From Actinomycetota bacterium (GTDB taxonomy: Bacteria > Actinomycetota > Acidimicrobiia > Acidimicrobiales > Ilumatobacteraceae), in contig RFQQ01000004.1 of NCBI GenBank assembly GCA_009924875.1, positions 1-32,501 of the forward strand: a stretch of 32,501 nt of DNA, given 5' to 3'. Positions 1,735 through 11,479 of the stretch are shown one piece after another. The number at the start of each line of letters is the position of its first letter. The stretch's first letter is position 1. The notes beneath the pieces were generated by a model. That model had not been told where the DNA came from. It saw only the letters and a list, made by a program, of their open reading frames with translations, and did no database searches. The translations under genes were made by a program, and so were the position numbers.

Positions 1735-3174
1735 ATGGCCGCACCACCGCTCCCCAACGGCCTCGTTGCCGTCGTCAAGCGGGACTGCGAGACCTGTCGG
1801 ACCGTCGCGCCCGTCCTCGCCGAACTCGCCGAAGCCACGTCGCTGACCATCTACTCACAAGACGATCCGGCCTTCCCCGACGGCCTGGAGGTCACCGACG
1901 ACCGCGACCTGTCGGTGAGTTGGCACCACGACATCGAGACCGTTCCGACCCTCATCCGAGTCGGCGCCAACGGCGAAGAGGCGCGCACCGTCGGCTGGTC
2001 GCTTCAGCAGTGGCGAGCGCTGACCGGCATCGATCGACTCGCCGAGAACCTCGATCTTCCCGAGCAGCGTCCGGGTTGCGGATCGATGAGCGTCGACCCT
2101 GATCTCGTCGACACCCTGCGTGCCCGACACTCCGGATCGCTCCTTCGATCCCGACACCTCGACCTCGCCGAGGCCGAGGACGAATTCGAATACATGCATC
2201 GCATGGGGTGGAGCGATGGACTGCCGCTCGTGCCCCCAACCGCCGAGCGAGTGCTCACCATGCTCGAAGGCACCTCGAGACCACCCGACGAGGTCATCGC
2301 GATCGTTCCCCCCGACCTCATTCAGGCCACCGTCGAGAAAATCGCGATCTCAGCCGTCATGGCCGGCTGCCTGCCCGAACACCTCCCGTGGGTCATCACC
2401 GCGGTCGAGGCCGTGTGCAACGACGAGTTCAACATGCATGGCCTCCTCGCGACGACCATGCCCGTCGGGCCCGTCATCGTGTGCAGCGGACCGGGGACGG
2501 CTCGCATCGGGATGAATCCGGGGGTCAACGCGCTCGGACAGGGCAACCGCGCGTCGCTATCGATCGGTCGGGCGCTCCAGTTACTGGTGCGCAACCTCGG
2601 CGGAGGCCGACCCGGTGGCGTCGACCGGGCCACCCACGGCAACCCCGGCAAACTGAGTTTTTGCTTCGCCGAGCACCCCGGCCCCTTCGGTTCACTCGCC
2701 GCCAGCCGGGCTGATATCGACGAGTCGACCGATGCGATCACCGTGTTCGCCGGCGAAGGCCCACGCTGCATCGTGGATCAACTCTCGCGGAGCCCGGAGA
2801 GCCTGGCAGGGACCCTCGCCGAGAATCTCCGCGCCATGCATCACCACAAGTTGGCGCTCGCTTTCGACGCCATCCTCGTGCTCGGACCCGAGCACGTTCG
2901 AGTGTTCACCGAGGGCGGATGGGACCGAACGCGGATCGTCGCCGAACTCGAGGCGCGCCTGCAGTTGCCGTATCCCGACATCGTCCGAGGAGCCGGCGGT
3001 ATCGCGGAGGGAATCCCCGACGGTCTCGGCCTCGACACCCTTGCGAAGTTCAGCCCCGGCGGGCTGATGCTCGCCCATGCCGGTGGAGGCGCGGGCCTCT
3101 TCTCCATGTTGATCGCCGGATGGGTCAACGGCGCGTCCGGCAGCCGACCCGTCACCAGAGCGGTGCAATACTGA
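1735..3174 (+). CDS. Two-domain protein: N-terminal thioredoxin-like domain (CETC) plus ~340-aa C-terminal domain of unknown function; upstream partner of the UGSC selenoprotein
   Basis: VAVVKRDCETCRTVAPVLAELAE...VPTLIRVGANGEEARTVGW is Trx-like; C-terminal GWSDGLPLVPPTAERV...PPDLIQATVEKIAISAVMAGCLPEHLPWVITAVEAVCNDEF. 4-nt gap to the next gene. Confidence 0.85.
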   Translation: MAAPPLPNGLVAVVKRDCETCRTVAPVLAELAEATSLTIYSQDDPAFPDGLEVTDDRDLSVSWHHDIETVPTLIRVGANGEEARTVGWSLQQWRALTGIDRLAENLDLPEQRPGCGSMSVDPDLVDTLRARHSGSLLRSRHLDLAEAEDEFEYMHRMGWSDGLPLVPPTAERVLTMLEGTSRPPDEVIAIVPPDLIQATVEKIAISAVMAGCLPEHLPWVITAVEAVCNDEFNMHGLLATTMPVGPVIVCSGPGTARIGMNPGVNALGQGNRASLSIGRALQLLVRNLGGGRPGGVDRATHGNPGKLSFCFAEHPGPFGSLAASRADIDESTDAITVFAGEGPRCIVDQLSRSPESLAGTLAENLRAMHHHKLALAFDAILVLGPEHVRVFTEGGWDRTRIVAELEARLQLPYPDIVRGAGGIAEGIPDGLGLDTLAKFSPGGLMLAHAGGGAGLFSMLIAGWVNGASGSRPVTRAVQY

Positions 3175-3178
3175 TCCG

Positions 3179-3703
3179 ATGACGTCGAAAGTGTTGCTCG
3201 ATCCGACGTCGGAATCGGCCCCGGCGGAACGCCAGCGGATCGCCCGACCGGCGAACCTCGACGGACTCACCGTCGGCCTCCTCGACATCTCCAAACCCCG
3301 CGGTGACGTGTTCTTGGATCGACTCTCCGAGCACCTCGAGCGTCGAGGTGCGACCGTCAGGCGCTACCGCAAGCCAACCTTCGCCAAGCCGGCACCGGTC
3401 GATCTGCGCCATGAGATCGCCGGCCAATGCCATGTGGTGATCGAGGCGCTCGCCGATTGAGGCAGTTGCACGTCGTGCAGTGTGCACGACATCAGTGATC
3501 TGGAGATCCGAGGGGTGCCCGGGGTGTTCATCGCCTCAAGCGAGTTCGTCGACGCCGCCGTCGCGCAGAGCACCTCTCTCGGCTATCCGACGATGGCTCG
3601 CGTCTTCGTGCCGCACCCGATCCAGGACCGCACCGACGACGAGATGCGCGCCCACGCTGATCACGCGTTCGACGAGATCCTGGCCGCCATCACCTCTGGC
3701 TGA
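3179..3703 (+). CDS. UGSC-motif selenoprotein (174 aa, Sec94 encoded by in-frame TGA 3458-3460)
   Basis: ORFs 3179..3460 and 3482..3703 are in the same frame; the bridge reads gcc gat TGA ggc agt tgc acg tcg tgc agt gtg cac gac = A D U G S C T S C S V H D. Both sides continue one protein (…GLLDISKPRGDVFLDRLSEHLERRGATVRRYRKPTFAKPAPVDL… / …GVPGVFIASSEFVDAAVAQSTSLGYPTMARVFVPHPIQDRTDDEM…). SECIS-like hairpin directly downstream. Confidence 0.88.
3458..3490 (+). promoter_or_regulatory. Sec codon and putative bacterial SECIS element
   Basis: TGA (3458-3460); stem GTCGTGCA (3472-3479) / TGCACGAC (3483-3490), perfect 8 bp; apical loop GTG (3480-3482) starting 20 nt after the TGA. Confidence 0.8.
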
Positions 3704-3711
3704 CCGGGCGC

Positions 3712-4578
3712 TCACCCAAGTTCGACGTCATCGCCGACCCGTCGGCACAAGCCGTCCTCGACGAGGTCAGCGAGCAGCCGTTCGGCGACATCACGATCCC
3801 GCTCCATCACCGACGACACCGCGACCACCGGGAGCGGGCCCTCCACCAACGCAGCAAGCAACCGCCCACGCGCCTGACGATCACTCCCCTCGAATTTCGC
3901 TTGCCTCGAACTCACCCCTGCTGAGCCCCGAGCCGGATCAGGGTGTTCGGTCGAACCCGCCCAGGAGCACAACCGCAGCAGCGGACATGTCGAGCAGCCG
4001 GGTGACCGGGAGGTGCACACCGTCGCGCCGAAGTCCATGACGACCTGATTCCAGATCCAGCCGTCACCCGACGGAACGAGCGCGTCCGCGAGACCCTGCG
4101 CCTCCGTCGGCCGCAGTCGCTCCCCCACCAAACGGGCGAGTAGCCGACCGACATTGGTATCGAGCACGCCGACGTCGTGGTCGAAGGCGAATGCGGCGAC
4201 CGCTCTCGCCGTGTACGGGCCGACACCGGGTAGATCCATCAACTCCTCGATCGACGCCGGGAACCTTCCCTCGGCGGTGATCCGTCCGGCCGCTTCATGA
4301 AGGGAACGCGCCCGTCGTGGGTAACCGAGCCCCTGCCATAGTCGGAGCAGTTCGGCGAGCGGAGCCGAGGCGAGCGCCTCCGGGGTCGGGAATCGCTCCA
4401 TGAACATCTCCCAGCGCGGGATGATTCGTGCCACCTGCGTCTGCTGCGCCATCACCTCGCTCACGAGCACGCCCCACGGATCGCGGGTGCGCCGCCACGG
4501 CAGATCGCGCAGACGCGGACCACCCCAGGCGAGGAGGACCGGCACGACCTCCTCGGAGACCGTCGGCGTCCGTGTCAC
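3712..4578 (-). CDS. mutY: A/G-specific adenine glycosylase MutY-like
   Basis: WGVLVSEVMAQQTQVARIIPRWEMFMERFP, HhH LPGVGPYTARAV, LDTNVGRLLARL, Fe-S cluster C-x6-C-x2-C-x5-C (CTSRSPGCSTCPLLRLC). ORF extends to 4665; GTG at 4578 overlaps the upstream stop (GTGA). Confidence 0.9.
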   Translation of the reverse strand: MTRTPTVSEEVVPVLLAWGGPRLRDLPWRRTRDPWGVLVSEVMAQQTQVARIIPRWEMFMERFPTPEALASAPLAELLRLWQGLGYPRRARSLHEAAGRITAEGRFPASIEELMDLPGVGPYTARAVAAFAFDHDVGVLDTNVGRLLARLVGERLRPTEAQGLADALVPSGDGWIWNQVVMDFGATVCTSRSPGCSTCPLLRLCSWAGSTEHPDPARGSAGVSSRQAKFEGSDRQARGRLLAALVEGPLPVVAVSSVMERDRDVAERLLADLVEDGLCRRVGDDVELG

Positions 4579-5870
4579 GACGAGCGGTCGAGCTCGTCGT
4601 CGCCCTCGACGGGTCGAGTGGGCAGTGACTCGTCCGGGTGGCGACGACGACGGGAGCGATCCCAACTCTGGTGGCTCGGCCTGATGTACTCGCCGGTCAC
4701 GTCCCTGATCGGGAACCGCAACTGGAAGTCGATCTTCGACTCCCCGCGACGGGTCTCCTGCTCCGCGAGATCACGGAGCCTCATGAGCCGCTCGCGGCGC
4801 TCGATACTCCACGGACCAACGCGGAGCGTCGCGTAGAGAATTCCGCCGAGGATGATCGGGAAGAAGAACTGCGCGAATCGATAGGAGGCGACCCCGAGGG
4901 TCGCGGTCCGCAGCGGCACGCCGAACCCGCGCAACATGCCGACGTAACTGGTGTCGACGTAGCCAAGGCCTCCCGGCGTGATCGGGATGGCAGCGAGCAC
5001 ATTGGCGACACCGAAGGCGATCACCAGGGCGTCCAGATCGAGCGAGATGCCGAACGCCCTCACGAACACCCAGAGCGCCGCGGCGTCGAGCAGCCAGTTC
5101 AGCGCCGCCCAGAAGGCGACGCGGCCGAGGAGTTGGCGGTCGCTGATCAGCGCCTCGAGACGCTCGGCGAGCTGATGCACGATCCGCGCCGCACGGTCGG
5201 GATCAAGTCGCATACGCCTCGCCACCCATCGAACGAGACGCTCCGAACGACCCTGGCCCTCCATCAGGCCGAAGGTGAGCGCCCCGGCCAGACCCATCAC
5301 GAGAATGCCGACGAGGGCCGCACCGCCATAGATCGGGTTCACCCCGCGGATCGGAATCGACACGATCAGTCCCGTCCACAAGATGAGGTTCAACACAACC
5401 GCGGAACCGAGGCCGACCGTGGCGAGCGCGAAACCCGCGTCGGGACCACCTACCCCCGAGAGCGTCATGAGGCGATAGCCGAGCGCCGAACTGGCCGCGT
5501 TGCCTCCGGGCACGATGCTCGACAGCGCGCGCGTGCTCATCTGGATTCGAAAGAGCCTCCACCGAGAAAGTCCGAGCCCAGCGTCACCGAGCGCGGCTTT
5601 CATCAGGGGCGCGTAACACCACAGGGCGAGCACCTCGAGCAGAAGACCGAGGGCGAGGAGCGCGGGGCGGACATTTCGAATCTCATCGAGCGCCGCGCGA
5701 AAATCGGGAACGAGTGGGATGACGAACAGGTAGAGCACTGCCGCGAACACGACAAGTTTCAGGCTGAGTCGGAACCGGCGGCGACGCCGAGCGGTTTCGC
5801 CCGGCGAACGCTCGATCGCTGGGAGTTCGCCGGTGGGTAGCGGCGCGTCGTGTGTCTGTGGTCCGTCCAT
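4575..5870 (-). CDS. Lysylphosphatidylglycerol synthase TM / UPF0104 flippase-like membrane protein
   Basis: Multi-TM protein with IVPGGNAASSALGYRLM, ITPGGLGYVDTSYVGML, FRFAQFFFPIILGG-type motifs. ATG at 5870 (MDGPQTHD) preferred over the ORF start at 6098, which overlaps the next gene. Confidence 0.85.
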   Translation of the reverse strand: MDGPQTHDAPLPTGELPAIERSPGETARRRRRFRLSLKLVVFAAVLYLFVIPLVPDFRAALDEIRNVRPALLALGLLLEVLALWCYAPLMKAALGDAGLGLSRWRLFRIQMSTRALSSIVPGGNAASSALGYRLMTLSGVGGPDAGFALATVGLGSAVVLNLILWTGLIVSIPIRGVNPIYGGAALVGILVMGLAGALTFGLMEGQGRSERLVRWVARRMRLDPDRAARIVHQLAERLEALISDRQLLGRVAFWAALNWLLDAAALWVFVRAFGISLDLDALVIAFGVANVLAAIPITPGGLGYVDTSYVGMLRGFGVPLRTATLGVASYRFAQFFFPIILGGILYATLRVGPWSIERRERLMRLRDLAEQETRRGESKIDFQLRFPIRDVTGEYIRPSHQSWDRSRRRRHPDESLPTRPVEGDDELDRSS

Positions 5871-5931
5871 GCGCTCCCGGAGCGGGGGCTCCTGCGAACA
5901 CACTACGCACCACCCCGTCGCTCGGGGACGT

Positions 5932-6957
5932 TCACCCCAAGCGCGCGAAGAGGCGCTCCGCTTGCTCAGACGCCCTGGCGCGAACCTCCACGGGGTCAAC
6001 CCGTGTCGGCTGGCCGTCGGCGAACACGATGTCCCCGTCGACGATGACCTCCACCGGGCTGAGACCCGGTGTGAACGCGAGGTACCACGGGTCGACATCT
6101 CCGTGATGCCAAAGCACCGAGTCGTCGGCCGCCTCGGGCACCAAGTCGCGACCCGCTTCGAGCCAACTCCACGCCAGTTCGGGGCCGACGGTCACGTCAT
6201 GCTCCCGGGATCTCGCGTACGCGAGCCGGAACTCCTCGAGCATGTCGGCGCCGATTCCGTCGGTGCCGAGGGCGACAGGATTCGCGAATCGAGCGGGGGC
6301 GGCGTAGCCGACGGAGTTGTTCATGTTCGATCGCGGGTTGTGGATCACCGTTCCTCGCAACCCGTGGGTATCGCTCAGATGCACACCGTGCACGAGCAGC
6401 CAGGAGTCGTTGGTGAGACCCTCCAGGCGCCGCGGGGCATCACGATCCGCCGACCCCTCGGCGACATGGATGTGCACGCCGACACCGAACGACGACGCCA
6501 GTTCCGCGGCCCCAGCGAGCGTCTCATCGGTACAGGTGAACGCGGCGTGCACTCCGACCATCCCCCGACCGCCCTCGGCGAGGAATCGGCGGTTCTCCTC
6601 GAGTCCACGACGAGCGCCGTCGGCCCCATGCCGATCGGTGACGCCGTAGGCGCACACCACGCGAACGCCGACCTCGGCGCAGGCATCGGCGATAACGCTG
6701 AGCGAACCCTCGATGGCGTTCGGCGACTCGTGGTGATCGATGACGGTGGTACACCCCCGCTCCAGCGCCTCGAGTGCGCCGAGCATCGCCGACCAGCGAA
6801 TCATCTCGAGATCGAGCGCGGAGTCGAGACGCCACCAGATCAGTTCGAGGATGTCGGTGAACCCAGCGGGGGTCCGCGACGGGGCCGGCATCCCACGGGC
6901 GAGCGTCGAATACAGATGGTGGTGAGCACACACCATCCCGGCGCTCCGAGTCGTCAT
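5932..6957 (-). CDS. SsnA-like amidohydrolase (metal-dependent hydrolase superfamily), lacking the usual N-terminal segment
   Basis: GMVCAHHHLYSTLARGM, HIHVAEG, VHNPRSNMNNSVGYA-like, LGTDGIGADM; begins only 10 residues before the metal-binding motif. ATGA overlap with the upstream gene. Confidence 0.8.
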   Translation of the reverse strand: MTTRSAGMVCAHHHLYSTLARGMPAPSRTPAGFTDILELIWWRLDSALDLEMIRWSAMLGALEALERGCTTVIDHHESPNAIEGSLSVIADACAEVGVRVVCAYGVTDRHGADGARRGLEENRRFLAEGGRGMVGVHAAFTCTDETLAGAAELASSFGVGVHIHVAEGSADRDAPRRLEGLTNDSWLLVHGVHLSDTHGLRGTVIHNPRSNMNNSVGYAAPARFANPVALGTDGIGADMLEEFRLAYARSREHDVTVGPELAWSWLEAGRDLVPEAADDSVLWHHGDVDPWYLAFTPGLSPVEVIVDGDIVFADGQPTRVDPVEVRARASEQAERLFARLG

Positions 6958-7889
6958 TGAGCCTCCGAACGACGAACCACGCCGCGCGTCGAGGAGATGA
7001 GGCCGTAGTGCTCGGGCCGGCGATACCGCCCGAAGTCGAACAGCGTCTCCTTGTAGTGGCGGCAGAGATCAAGATCGCAGACCGCCGACACGACGAGATC
7101 ACCCGACACGGTCGCTTGAGCCACCACTTGACCCGACGGGGCGATGATCTGCGAGTGGGAAAGCGACTCCACGCCTTCCTCCACGCCTCCCTTGGCGACG
7201 CCGACCACCCATGTCCCGTTCTGGTACGCGCCTGACGCCATGACGAGGTTGTTGTGGAAGGACTGGAGAGGGTTCTGATCAGGATCGGGCGCGTAGTGGA
7301 GCGGCGTGTTGTAGCCGATCAACACCAGCTCGACGCCAAGCAGTCCGAGCACCCGATACGTCTCGGGCCACCTTCGGTCGTTGCACAGCGCCATACCGAC
7401 GACCCCGCCGAACGCGTCGTGCACCCCGAAACCGTCAGGGGACTCCTCGAAGTATCGGCGCTCGAGGTGCTGGAACGGCCTCCATGGCTCGTGCTCGTCA
7501 TGACCCGGGATGTGCACCTTGCGGTAGCGGCCAACGATCTCACCGCTCTCATCGACGAGCACATAGGTGTTGTAGCGATGACCATCCGCGGTCAACTCCG
7601 CGTAGCCGAGGCAGAAGCCGACACCAAGTCGGCGCGCCTCGTCGAAGAGCGGCTGGGTCGCCGCCGACGGCATCTCCCGTTCGTAGAAGTGATCGTGACC
7701 CCCTGGGTCCTCCGTCCACCAGCGCGGAAAGAAGGTGGTGAGCGCCAGCTCGGGGAAGACGATGAGACGGCATCCACGCGAGGCCCCCTCGCGAAGCAGG
7801 GCGATCAGTCGCTCGACCACCGCAGCTCTCGACTCGTCGCGGGCGATCGGGCCGAGCTGAGCTGCGCCGACGTGGAGTTCGCGGCTCAC
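6954..7889 (-). CDS. Carbon-nitrogen hydrolase (nitrilase superfamily), N-carbamoyl-D-amino-acid hydrolase-like
   Basis: Glu FPELALTTFFPRWW, Lys YRKVHIPG, Cys MALCNDRRWPETYRVLGL. Confidence 0.85.
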   Translation of the reverse strand: MSRELHVGAAQLGPIARDESRAAVVERLIALLREGASRGCRLIVFPELALTTFFPRWWTEDPGGHDHFYEREMPSAATQPLFDEARRLGVGFCLGYAELTADGHRYNTYVLVDESGEIVGRYRKVHIPGHDEHEPWRPFQHLERRYFEESPDGFGVHDAFGGVVGMALCNDRRWPETYRVLGLLGVELVLIGYNTPLHYAPDPDQNPLQSFHNNLVMASGAYQNGTWVVGVAKGGVEEGVESLSHSQIIAPSGQVVAQATVSGDLVVSAVCDLDLCRHYKETLFDFGRYRRPEHYGLISSTRGVVRRSEAQ

Positions 7890-9157
7890 CAGTCACCCCC
7901 ATCGGCGAGGTCGAGCATGACATCGGCCATCACCTGACATCCGGCCACGAGATCGGCGTCCTCAGTGAGTTCCGCCGGGTTGTGGCTGACACCCCCGATG
8001 CTCGGTACGAACACCATCCCAGACGGACACATCCTCGCGAGCATCTGCGCATCATGCCCGGCACCGGAGGGCATCCGCCGGACCGATAGCCCGCGAGCAG
8101 CAGCGGCGGCCTCCACTCTCGACACGATCCGCTCATCGAAGGCGACCGGTTCGAACCGCGCCAAACACTCGGTCTCCACGGTCACCCCGTGACGCTCCGC
8201 GACGCGCGCGAGCTCGGCGGCGAGTTCCTCCTCGGCTCGGCAGAGCACCACCTCGTCGGTGTTGCGGAGATCGACGGTGAACGTGGCGCGGGACGGCACC
8301 ACATTGACCAGATTCGGATGCAACTCGATACGCCCGACGGTTGCCACCTGCGGGGCGCCGAACCGGTCGGCGAGATCGTTCACGAAGACAGCGATACGCG
8401 CGAGGGCCGCCGCAGGGTCTCGTCGCATCGACATCGGTGTGGTTCCCGCATGGTTCGACTGGCCCGTGAAGGTCACGCGGGTCCACGAAATCCCCTGCAC
8501 CCCAGTGACCGCGCCGATCCTCAGGCCCTCGGCCTCGAGAACCGGTCCCTGCTCGACGTGCAACTCGACGAACGCGTGCGGAGGGGAACCCGGGCACGGC
8601 GAGGAACCGAGGTATCCGATGCGTTCGAGTTCATCGCGAACCGTTGGACCCGGACCGCCAGGATCAGCCGCGCGGATGTCGTGAGCCTGCTCGACGGTCA
8701 TCCCGCCCGCGTAGACGAGGCTGCCGAGCATGTCCGGAGCGAACCGGGCACCCTCCTCATCGGTGAAGAATCCGACGCCGAGCGGATGCCGAAGCTCGAG
8801 CCCGGCGGCGAGCACCGACTCGATCACCTCGAGCCCGGCCAGCACGCCGAGGTTGCCGTCAAAACGACCACCGGTCGCCACGGTGTCAATGTGCGAACCA
8901 CAGAGAACGGGAGCACGTCCTGAGCGGTGCCCGCAGCCCTCCCCCATCACGGCGATCACATTGCCGATCGCGTCGATCGACACATCGAGCCCGAGATCGC
9001 GCATCCAGCCGAGCACGAGGTCGCGGCCATCCCGGTCGGCGTCGGTCAGCGCGAGACGCGCGCTTCCCCGCTCCCCGGACGCGCCGGTGATCGGACCGAT
9101 CTCGGCCAAGGCTTCGAGGCGCTCGAGCAAACGCCCCCCGTCGATGTCGACATGCAC
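7886..9157 (-). CDS. M20-family Zn hydrolase: N-carbamoyl-L-amino-acid hydrolase / allantoate amidohydrolase / beta-ureidopropionase family
   Basis: VLCGSHIDTVATGGRFDGNLGVLAGLEVIE, FFTDEEGARF, ELHVEQGPVLE, GQSNHAGTTPMSMRRDPA, MPSGAGHDAQMLA, FVPSIGGVSHNPAE. Confidence 0.9.
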   Translation of the reverse strand: MHVDIDGGRLLERLEALAEIGPITGASGERGSARLALTDADRDGRDLVLGWMRDLGLDVSIDAIGNVIAVMGEGCGHRSGRAPVLCGSHIDTVATGGRFDGNLGVLAGLEVIESVLAAGLELRHPLGVGFFTDEEGARFAPDMLGSLVYAGGMTVEQAHDIRAADPGGPGPTVRDELERIGYLGSSPCPGSPPHAFVELHVEQGPVLEAEGLRIGAVTGVQGISWTRVTFTGQSNHAGTTPMSMRRDPAAALARIAVFVNDLADRFGAPQVATVGRIELHPNLVNVVPSRATFTVDLRNTDEVVLCRAEEELAAELARVAERHGVTVETECLARFEPVAFDERIVSRVEAAAAARGLSVRRMPSGAGHDAQMLARMCPSGMVFVPSIGGVSHNPAELTEDADLVAGCQVMADVMLDLADGGDW

Positions 9158-9163
9158 GAGCGA

Positions 9164-9169
9164 AGGTTA
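9164..9169 (-). promoter_or_regulatory. Putative leaderless -10 (TAACCT), 6 nt upstream of GTG 9157
   Basis: Minus strand TAACCT-tcgctc-GTG. Confidence 0.6.
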
Positions 9170-9198
9170 CGAGTCGCTTGACAAAGCGTCAAAGCACC

Positions 9199-9798
9199 TC
9201 ACTGGGCGAGATCCACCCACTTCGGCGCGACCTCACCATGGTCGCGATCCAGCAGCTCCATCGCCTCTGACACCGTCGCCGCCCTCAGCGCAGCCGCACG
9301 ATGGCGCTCCTTGAGGAGTCCGGACTCCACGGCATGGTCGAAGAAGTCGAACAGGCGGCTGTAGAAGCCCGCCACATCGAGCAGCACCACCGGATGCCGG
9401 TTCAAACCGAGCTGGGTCCAGGTCAGAATCTCGAGCACCTCCTCGAAGGTGCCGAAGCCGCCAGGCAACGCGACGAAGCCGGTGGCCAGCTCAGCCATCC
9501 GCGCCTTGCGCTCGTGCATCGAATCGGTCACCTCGAGCGAGGTCACCCGGTCGTGACCCAACTCGTGCCGGACCAGGTGCTCAGGGATCACGCCGATCAC
9601 ACGTCCGCCCGCGTCCATCGCCGCGTCGGCGACGACGCCCATTAGACCGACGTCACCGCCCCCGTAGACAAGGGTGCGTCCAGCACCCGCCAGAGCAGCG
9701 CCAAGTTCGGCCGCCGCCGCGGCGAACGACGGGTCGGTGCCCGCCGATGAACCGCAGTACACCGCGACCGGACCACCTGATCCGGATCGCTCAACCAC
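9199..9798 (-). CDS. LOG family / TIGR00730-type Rossmann-fold protein (cytokinin riboside phosphoribohydrolase-like)
   Basis: VAVYCGSSAGTDPSF, LVYGGGDVGLMGVVADAAM, MHERKARMAELATGFVALPGGFGTFEEVLEILTWTQLG. GTG 9798 preferred over the ORF start at 9861. Confidence 0.9.
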   Translation of the reverse strand: MVERSGSGGPVAVYCGSSAGTDPSFAAAAAELGAALAGAGRTLVYGGGDVGLMGVVADAAMDAGGRVIGVIPEHLVRHELGHDRVTSLEVTDSMHERKARMAELATGFVALPGGFGTFEEVLEILTWTQLGLNRHPVVLLDVAGFYSRLFDFFDHAVESGLLKERHRAAALRAATVSEAMELLDRDHGEVAPKWVDLAQ

Positions 9799-9805
9799 GC
9801 GAGGA

Positions 9806-9811
9806 ATCGTA
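9806..9811 (-). promoter_or_regulatory. Putative leaderless -10 (TACGAT), 7 nt upstream of GTG 9798
   Basis: Minus strand TACGAT then 7 nt then GTG. Confidence 0.5.
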
Positions 9812-9847
9812 GGCGAGCACAGATCGTGGTGCCGTGGAACCGGTCGG

Positions 9848-9853
9848 TAGTTT
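9848..9853 (+). promoter_or_regulatory. Putative leaderless -10 (TAGTTT), 6 nt upstream of ATG 9860
   Basis: TAGTTT-ttcccc-ATG. Confidence 0.6.
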
Positions 9854-9859
9854 TTCCCC

Positions 9860-11479
9860 ATGGATCACCCGACCCCCGACATGCTCGGCGCCGCCGCCGT
9901 CATCGACCTCGCGGACTCCATCATCGGCTCGGCGATCCGACGCCTCGGCGAGTCCGGTGGCCCCGATGTCCACCAGGTGTTCGCCTACGACCTCGCGCAC
10001 GCCGCCTCCGCAGCCGCCACCGCTCGCTCACTACTCGACTACGGATCGAAGGGCGACGTCGAAGCCTCGATCACCTGCGCCTTCGTCGCGGACATGGTGC
10101 ACGACCTCTCCTCGCGCCTCCTCGGCCGCGAGACCCAGTGGGGTGTCGAGGCCGGCGTACTCGAACCCGCCCATCATTTCGTGGCGCGCTACCGCGATCC
10201 CGAGTTCCTCGCCTCGCTCGCGGCCACGCCCGGCCCGCTGCATCTCAGCGACGACATGGACATGGTTCGCGACACCTTCCGCGCCTTCGCCGCCGATGTG
10301 GTGGCTCCTCACGCCGAACATGTGCACCGCACGAACGGCGACGTTCCCGAGGAGATCATCACGGGCCTCGCCGAACTCGGAGCCTTCGGACTGAGCGTCC
10401 CGAGCGAGTACGGCGGCTACAGCGAGGGTGGCCACGACGAGTACGTCGCCATGGTGGTCGCCACCGAGGAGTTGAGCCGAGCGAGCCTCGGTATCGGCGG
10501 CTCCCTCATCACCCGACCGGAGATCCTGACCCGCGCCCTCGTGAAGGGAGGCAGCGAGGAGCAAAAGCGCCACTGGCTGCCGAAACTCGCCGTCGCGGAG
10601 GTCATGCCCGCCGTCGCGGTCACCGAACCCGACTACGGCAGCGACGTCGCCAGCATCAAGGTGACGGCGACGCCGGCTGAGGGTCCCGAGGGTCGACCCG
10701 GCTACGTCATCAACGGCGTCAAGACCTGGTGCACGTTCGGTGCTCGAGCCGACGCTCTCGCCCTACTCGCTCGCACCGACCCCGATCGCTCCAAGACCCA
10801 CCGGGGACTCAGCCTCTTCATCGTCCCGAAGCCCCGCGGCGACGCTCACGGATTCGTGTTCTCCCAAGAACCAGTCGAGGTCGACGGCACCACGCGCACC
10901 GGACGCATGGAGGGCCGACCGATCGACACCATCGGGTACCGAGGTATGCACTCCTATGAGATCGCCCTTGAGGACTGGTGGGTGCCAGCGGAGAATCTCG
11001 TCGGCGAGGCCGAGGGTCTCGGACGCGGCTTCTACTACCAGATGGAGGGCTTCGAAAACGGCCGACTACAGACGGCCGCACGTGCGGTCGGGCTGATGCA
11101 ATCGGCCTACGAACTCGCCCTCGAGTACGCCGAGAACCGGAAGGTCTTCGACCACTCCATCATCGACTACCAGCTGACCCGCGCGAAGCTCGGTCGGATG
11201 GCTGTGGTGATCCAGGCCGCGCGTCAGTTCTCCTACGCCGTCGCCACGCTGATGGGCAAGGGCGAGGGCGCCACCGAGGCCTCCATGGTGAAGGCCTACG
11301 TCTGTAAAGCCGCCGAGTGGGTCACTCGCGAGGCGATGCAAATCCACGGGGGCATGGGCTACGCCGAGGAGTACACCGTGAGCCGACTCTTCGTCGACGC
11401 TCGAGTCCTCTCCATCTTCGAGGGCGCCGACGAGACGCTCTGCTTGAAGGTGATCGCGCGCCGGCTGACCGCGGACTGA
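9860..11479 (+). CDS. Acyl-CoA dehydrogenase with ~145-aa N-terminal extension, (2S)-methylsuccinyl-CoA dehydrogenase-like
   Basis: ACAD motifs AVTEPDYGSDVASIKVTA, NGVKTWCTFGARAD, MQIHGGMGYAEEYTVSRLFVDARVLSIFEGADETLCLKVIARRL; 539 aa with an extra helical N-terminal region. Confidence 0.85.
   Translation: MDHPTPDMLGAAAVIDLADSIIGSAIRRLGESGGPDVHQVFAYDLAHAASAAATARSLLDYGSKGDVEASITCAFVADMVHDLSSRLLGRETQWGVEAGVLEPAHHFVARYRDPEFLASLAATPGPLHLSDDMDMVRDTFRAFAADVVAPHAEHVHRTNGDVPEEIITGLAELGAFGLSVPSEYGGYSEGGHDEYVAMVVATEELSRASLGIGGSLITRPEILTRALVKGGSEEQKRHWLPKLAVAEVMPAVAVTEPDYGSDVASIKVTATPAEGPEGRPGYVINGVKTWCTFGARADALALLARTDPDRSKTHRGLSLFIVPKPRGDAHGFVFSQEPVEVDGTTRTGRMEGRPIDTIGYRGMHSYEIALEDWWVPAENLVGEAEGLGRGFYYQMEGFENGRLQTAARAVGLMQSAYELALEYAENRKVFDHSIIDYQLTRAKLGRMAVVIQAARQFSYAVATLMGKGEGATEASMVKAYVCKAAEWVTREAMQIHGGMGYAEEYTVSRLFVDARVLSIFEGADETLCLKVIARRLTAD

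Follow-up and report, generated by a model that had tools for sequence, protein, structure and literature searches.

The UGSC selenoproteins, catalogued as PF24696 and NF041046, form one of the most abundant selenoprotein families of aquatic metagenomes (PMC2398784, PMC9402790). In the 2008 survey, a UGSC protein was found fused to an unnamed domain called Unknown_1 (Zhang and Gladyshev 2008, PMC2398784). PMC5330540, citing an earlier report, describes a tRNA-Sec with the anticodon CUA for the Geodermatophilaceae and states that UGSC proteins decoded from UAG are known in this family. A second group that can be compared with UGSC is the GrdB/PrdB-like selenoproteins (PF07355, TIGR01917).

The window, i.e., the whole stretch of DNA analysed here, comprises 32,501 nucleotides from a member of the Ilumatobacteraceae. 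On its forward strand, positions 3179-3703 form a single frame of 174 codons, which opens with ATG at 3179 and carries a TGA at codon 94 (3458-3460); the sole other in-frame stop is the terminal TGA at 3701-3703. Residues 93-104 of the read-through protein are D-U-G-S-C-T-S-C-S-V-H-D, where U is selenocysteine (Sec). Cys97 and Cys100 are conserved, and the columns of the motif itself (U94-G-S-C97) are invariant in the homologue alignment A2. Both curated profiles recognise the protein well beyond chance expectation, PF24696 with 160.1 bits (cut-off 25) and NF041046 with 166.3 bits (cut-off 125), and the locus is clearly one intact gene of the known UGSC family, sharing its motif. The preliminary description was exact in its coordinates, frame and motif, and no further stop was found inside the 174 codons; its assignment to the UGSC-motif family is borne out by the profile scores. 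Its term "hidden" selenoprotein is apt for a naive gene caller, but not otherwise, since Pfam and NCBIfam already include the family. The apparent second start at 3482 is a GTG (Val102) within the UGSC frame and, thus, the start that a gene caller would choose past the TGA. While the family is already known, the conserved partner and the predicted fold are added here.

The more informative feature of the locus, overlooked in the preliminary description, is a conserved partner gene directly upstream. It occupies positions 1735-3174 of the same strand, encodes 479 residues and ends 4 nt before the UGSC start. At its N-terminus lies a thioredoxin-like domain with the motif C18-x-T-C21, both cysteines of which are invariant in partners of the window type. 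The C-terminal domain has an invariant Cys212 and is uncatalogued; Pfam, NCBIfam and PDB yielded no convincing match for it. Two candidate identities were rejected. Foldseek matches to class I fumarase are weak (TM about 0.2), and comparing its profile with that of fumarases from the same order gave a negative result; the partner profile also does not match that of GrdE.

All 22 wide loci compared have a partner homologue next to UGSC, at identities down to 29%, as do most UGSC copies in a wider set, many of those stretches being short. Starting from the partner, UGSC is the neighbouring gene in 71 of the 77 loci with room for it (69 in which codon 94 was scored, plus two cut by the contig end). 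The pairing spans actinobacterial, proteobacterial, acidobacterial, chloroflexi and other records. Three loci (L169, L174, L181) have UGSC and partner in divergent orientation, so the pairing is independent of one orientation, and in some paralogues they share a single open frame (with TGA in L084 and Cys in L090). Homologues with Cys retain the partner, except for one on a short contig (L250). In Blastococcus and Geodermatophilus, the Geodermatophilaceae gene treated in PMC5330540 lies beside the same partner; its Sec codon is TAG, in contrast to the TGA of the window. Where PMC2398784 noted the fusion to Unknown_1, there is here a conserved two-gene unit across several phyla. Unknown_1 and the partner are likely to be identical. 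No description of the pairing was found in the literature searched, and one may exist elsewhere.

Six partner loci with room have no adjacent UGSC. Among partner loci without a detected UGSC, L137, L210 and L211 were inspected, and L142, L144 and L180 stop at the contig edge. The three inspected loci have a full-length partner without a neighbouring UGSC, and in L137 a methyltransferase-like gene comes directly after it. Some partners of paralogues do not have the N-terminal thioredoxin-like domain, which is therefore dispensable in some cases. UGSC paralogues number up to ten in one genome (G083) and five in another (G111). Subtypes can be distinguished by motif (UGSCTSC, UGSCTSW, UGSCTSG and UGSCTP), with a partner copy accompanying each where this was looked at. 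Frequent neighbours in Acidimicrobiia, as judged by eye, resemble flavin reductase, MaoC-type dehydratase, acyl-CoA dehydrogenase, luciferase-like monooxygenase and SDR genes, a list that may simply mirror genome content.

The fold of UGSC was published as likely thioredoxin-like (PMC2398784). In contrast, the structure predicted here (mean pLDDT 92) is a five-strand alpha/beta fold with Sec94 located between strand 86-92 and helix 95-110. In the PDB, the model chiefly resembles flavodoxin-, Rossmann- or lumazine-synthase-like structures, at modest TM-scores; none of the 50 matches listed is a thioredoxin. The fold is predicted to be Rossmann/flavodoxin-like and not thioredoxin-like; the thioredoxin-like domain sits in the partner, and no thioredoxin fold was found in UGSC itself.

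When UGSC was compared with a profile of GrdB plus PrdB-like sequences from the same order, the match had a probability of 86% and an E-value of 5e-6, with Sec aligned to Sec, in one targeted comparison that covers only about 63 columns. The match to GrdB alone (four sequences) is weaker (7%, 0.005), and that to PrdB-like sequences alone gave 53% and 1e-4; unrelated comparisons (the partner against GrdE, GrdB, PrdB-like, fumarase and UGSC) gave 0.14-0.6. Both have Sec with a Cys about two residues downstream, followed by a helix and a G-[IV]-P stretch, and the PrdB-like members further resemble UGSC in a PHP-type stretch beyond these. However, UGSC falls below every curated cut-off for these proteins; TIGR01917, the GrdB profile, scores the UGSC protein at 14.7 bits against a cut-off of 602. 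No partner of the GrdE/PrdA type was detected for UGSC, nor was a GrdE-type pyruvoyl proprotein. The distant resemblance of UGSC to GrdB/PrdB is suggestive and not proof of kinship.

The preferred explanation combines these features in a mechanism. SelB, guided by a hairpin just past the TGA, would insert Sec at residue 94, and UGSC and the upstream gene would act as a two-gene redox unit. Sec94 is predicted at the start of a helix of the Rossmann-like domain and forms a UxxC pair with Cys97; it might act as the nucleophile in reducing a small-molecule substrate, in the manner of the GrdB/PrdB selenoproteins. The oxidised Sec-Cys pair might then be re-reduced via the thioredoxin-like CxTC domain of the partner, where present, and the C-terminal domain of the partner, with its invariant Cys212, may bind or position the substrate. 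The whole explanation, a selenoprotein with SelB-inserted Sec94 that forms a small-molecule-reducing redox unit with its partner, is reasonably probable. The weak and short GrdB/PrdB match, the partner's lack of detectable kinship with GrdE, the partners devoid of the N-terminal domain and the six partner loci with room but no UGSC weigh against it. For the reductase mechanism, in which the partner would supply electrons and hold the substrate site, the chances are roughly even. More tentative, and a little short of even, is a broader suggestion: UGSC and partner would together make up a two-subunit enzyme of a new class of Sec (or Cys) reductases. This class would be distantly related to glycine and D-proline reductase, with duplications in some genomes serving different substrates, and the C-terminal domain of the partner would be a new protein family. 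The near-constant and sometimes fused thioredoxin-like partner, together with the GrdB/PrdB link, turns the "uncharacterised" UGSC into a testable two-protein unit.

Rather than being a specific small-molecule reductase, the unit could be a thiol-disulfide relay or an antioxidant module that acts on proteins or peroxides. The UxxC motif, the thioredoxin-like domain in the partner and the published guess of a thioredoxin-like UGSC fold (PMC2398784) are in line with this. It is nevertheless the less likely reading, given that UGSC is itself predicted to be Rossmann/flavodoxin-like, that the large conserved second domain of the partner, with its invariant residues, looks substrate-binding, and that as many as ten paralogues in one genome suggest diversified substrates.

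Another possible role is in selenium handling, for example, storing selenium or delivering it to the Sec pathway. The genes selA and selB adjoin the UGSC-partner pair in 10 of the 80 named loci, in two phyla, and in several genomes of the genus too; they are upstream of the pair in Acidimicrobiia and downstream in records labelled Pseudomonadota. Such linkage is simply expected for a Sec-dependent gene, and many loci lie away from sel genes. Moreover, versions with Cys that keep the partner exist. A role in selenium handling is therefore improbable, and the redox unit remains the preferred reading.

Codon 94 was scorable in 69 of the 80 named loci retrieved via the partner gene; it is TGA in 67 of these and TAG in two. 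The two TAG loci (L148, L160) are from Blastococcus and Geodermatophilus, with UGSC adjoining the same partner, and the codon fits the UAG-decoding tRNA-Sec reported for that family in PMC5330540. In the genomes around the window, nearly all full UGSC matches contain one TGA and a few have Cys, consistent with the known family, in which most members have Sec and a few have Cys. The expectation that homologues would have Sec or Cys at residue 94 is thus confirmed, with TAG replacing TGA in the UAG-Sec clade, and none of the homologues examined ends at this codon. The TGA is conserved in three syntenic orthologues of the same genus, and differences after it fall at third codon positions in 18 of 24, 22 of 27 and 22 of 32 cases; purifying selection is seen on both sides of the TGA. 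A distant relative in L257 (5795-6269, minus-strand reading) has UDGC in place of UGSC, in frame with its partner domain.

The Sec insertion signal expected downstream of the UGA is represented here by a SECIS-like hairpin with covariation at 3472-3490 on the forward strand. It begins 11 nt past the TGA and consists of an 8-bp stem, GTCGTGCA-GTG-TGCACGAC, with the loop GUG at 3480-3482; folding, synonymous-site constraint and compensatory changes all point to it. Among 108 unique copies, 98 have Ser at the loop codon and all of these use AGT; the stem Ser is encoded only by TCG or TCA, while six codons are used for the Ser just outside the hairpin. Across 49 sequences, standard pairs occupy 94% of pair cells and three pairs show changes in both strands of the stem, a degree of pairing and covariation that none of the 500 shuffles, which ignore relatedness, attains. 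When the hairpin alignment is slid to other offsets, only 3-57% of cells are paired. Pairing is lost in some lineages at the two outermost positions and at the closing A-U pair, leaving a hairpin core of about five pairs. The hairpin is missing from six Cys homologues. A 28-nt stretch containing it has a folding energy z of -2.37 against shuffles, whereas the 54 nt from the TGA onward (inclusive) have no excess (z 0.08). The case for the hairpin, thus, rests on conservation. A search of Rfam gave no SECIS-type match. At the level of sequence, the signal for recoding, the distribution of TGA, TAG and Cys at codon 94 and the constant association with the partner can be regarded as established.

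The genes for Sec synthesis and insertion are less straightforward. The bin containing the window, G000, is 0.99 Mb in size and 58% complete; SelA and SelD were not found in it, and there is no convincing SelB or tRNA-Sec. A tRNA-Sec-like match of 29.6 bits was discarded as background because such matches occur in all 14 control genomes, only five of which have them above the cut-off. The sel genes that the preliminary description had proposed to look for in the source genome are therefore lacking from the bin itself, but SelA is present in all 15 other genomes of the genus, and tRNA-Sec and SelB are above cut-off in most of them. SelD was searched for in 16 genomes and exceeds the cut-off in 14. 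In a syntenic relative, G012, the tRNA-Sec lies at 7383-7478 of L246, within a stretch (2891-11251) that has no match in the bin; on both sides of this stretch, a bin contig starts at its first base. For the selAB region of G012, which spans 14 kb, the bin likewise offers no real match. With the tRNA-Sec region falling between two bin contig ends and the selAB region absent, it appears that the sel genes of the bin were lost to assembly.

If the TGA were a real stop, the locus would be a pseudogene or two short genes, in keeping with the bin having no Sec machinery of its own. This is highly improbable, as the assembly gap can account for the missing sel genes, the TGA is conserved and followed by change biased towards synonymous sites and by a SECIS-like hairpin, TAG occupies the same codon in the UAG-Sec clade, and homologues with Cys are without the hairpin. 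Even more remote is the reading of TGA as another amino acid, such as Trp, for which no support was found (a frame that is open under a changed code proves nothing alone), since homologues alternate only with Cys, selA, selB, selD and tRNA-Sec are present in the genus, and TGA is an ordinary stop in genes of the window, for example, the partner and the terminator of the UGSC gene itself. The reading of TGA as Sec is supported by the homologue codons, the selection on both sides, the hairpin, the Sec machinery of the genus and the selA-selB genes beside the pair in some loci. Judging by sequence comparison, 3179-3703 is almost certainly a genuine UGSC selenoprotein gene with Sec at the TGA. The locus also illustrates that a gene split by TGA can be genuine even though its bin has no sel genes, when the assembly has lost these.

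Two observations on the Sec trait were made in passing. G021 has two TGA-containing UGSC genes as well as a tRNA-Sec, yet SelA gave no match there and no SelB match reached the cut-off; it is rated 90% complete, and the absence is perhaps mere incompleteness. In the same genus and family, short PrdB-like selenoproteins with the motif PVUPxC were found (L217-L231), a further sign of an active Sec trait.
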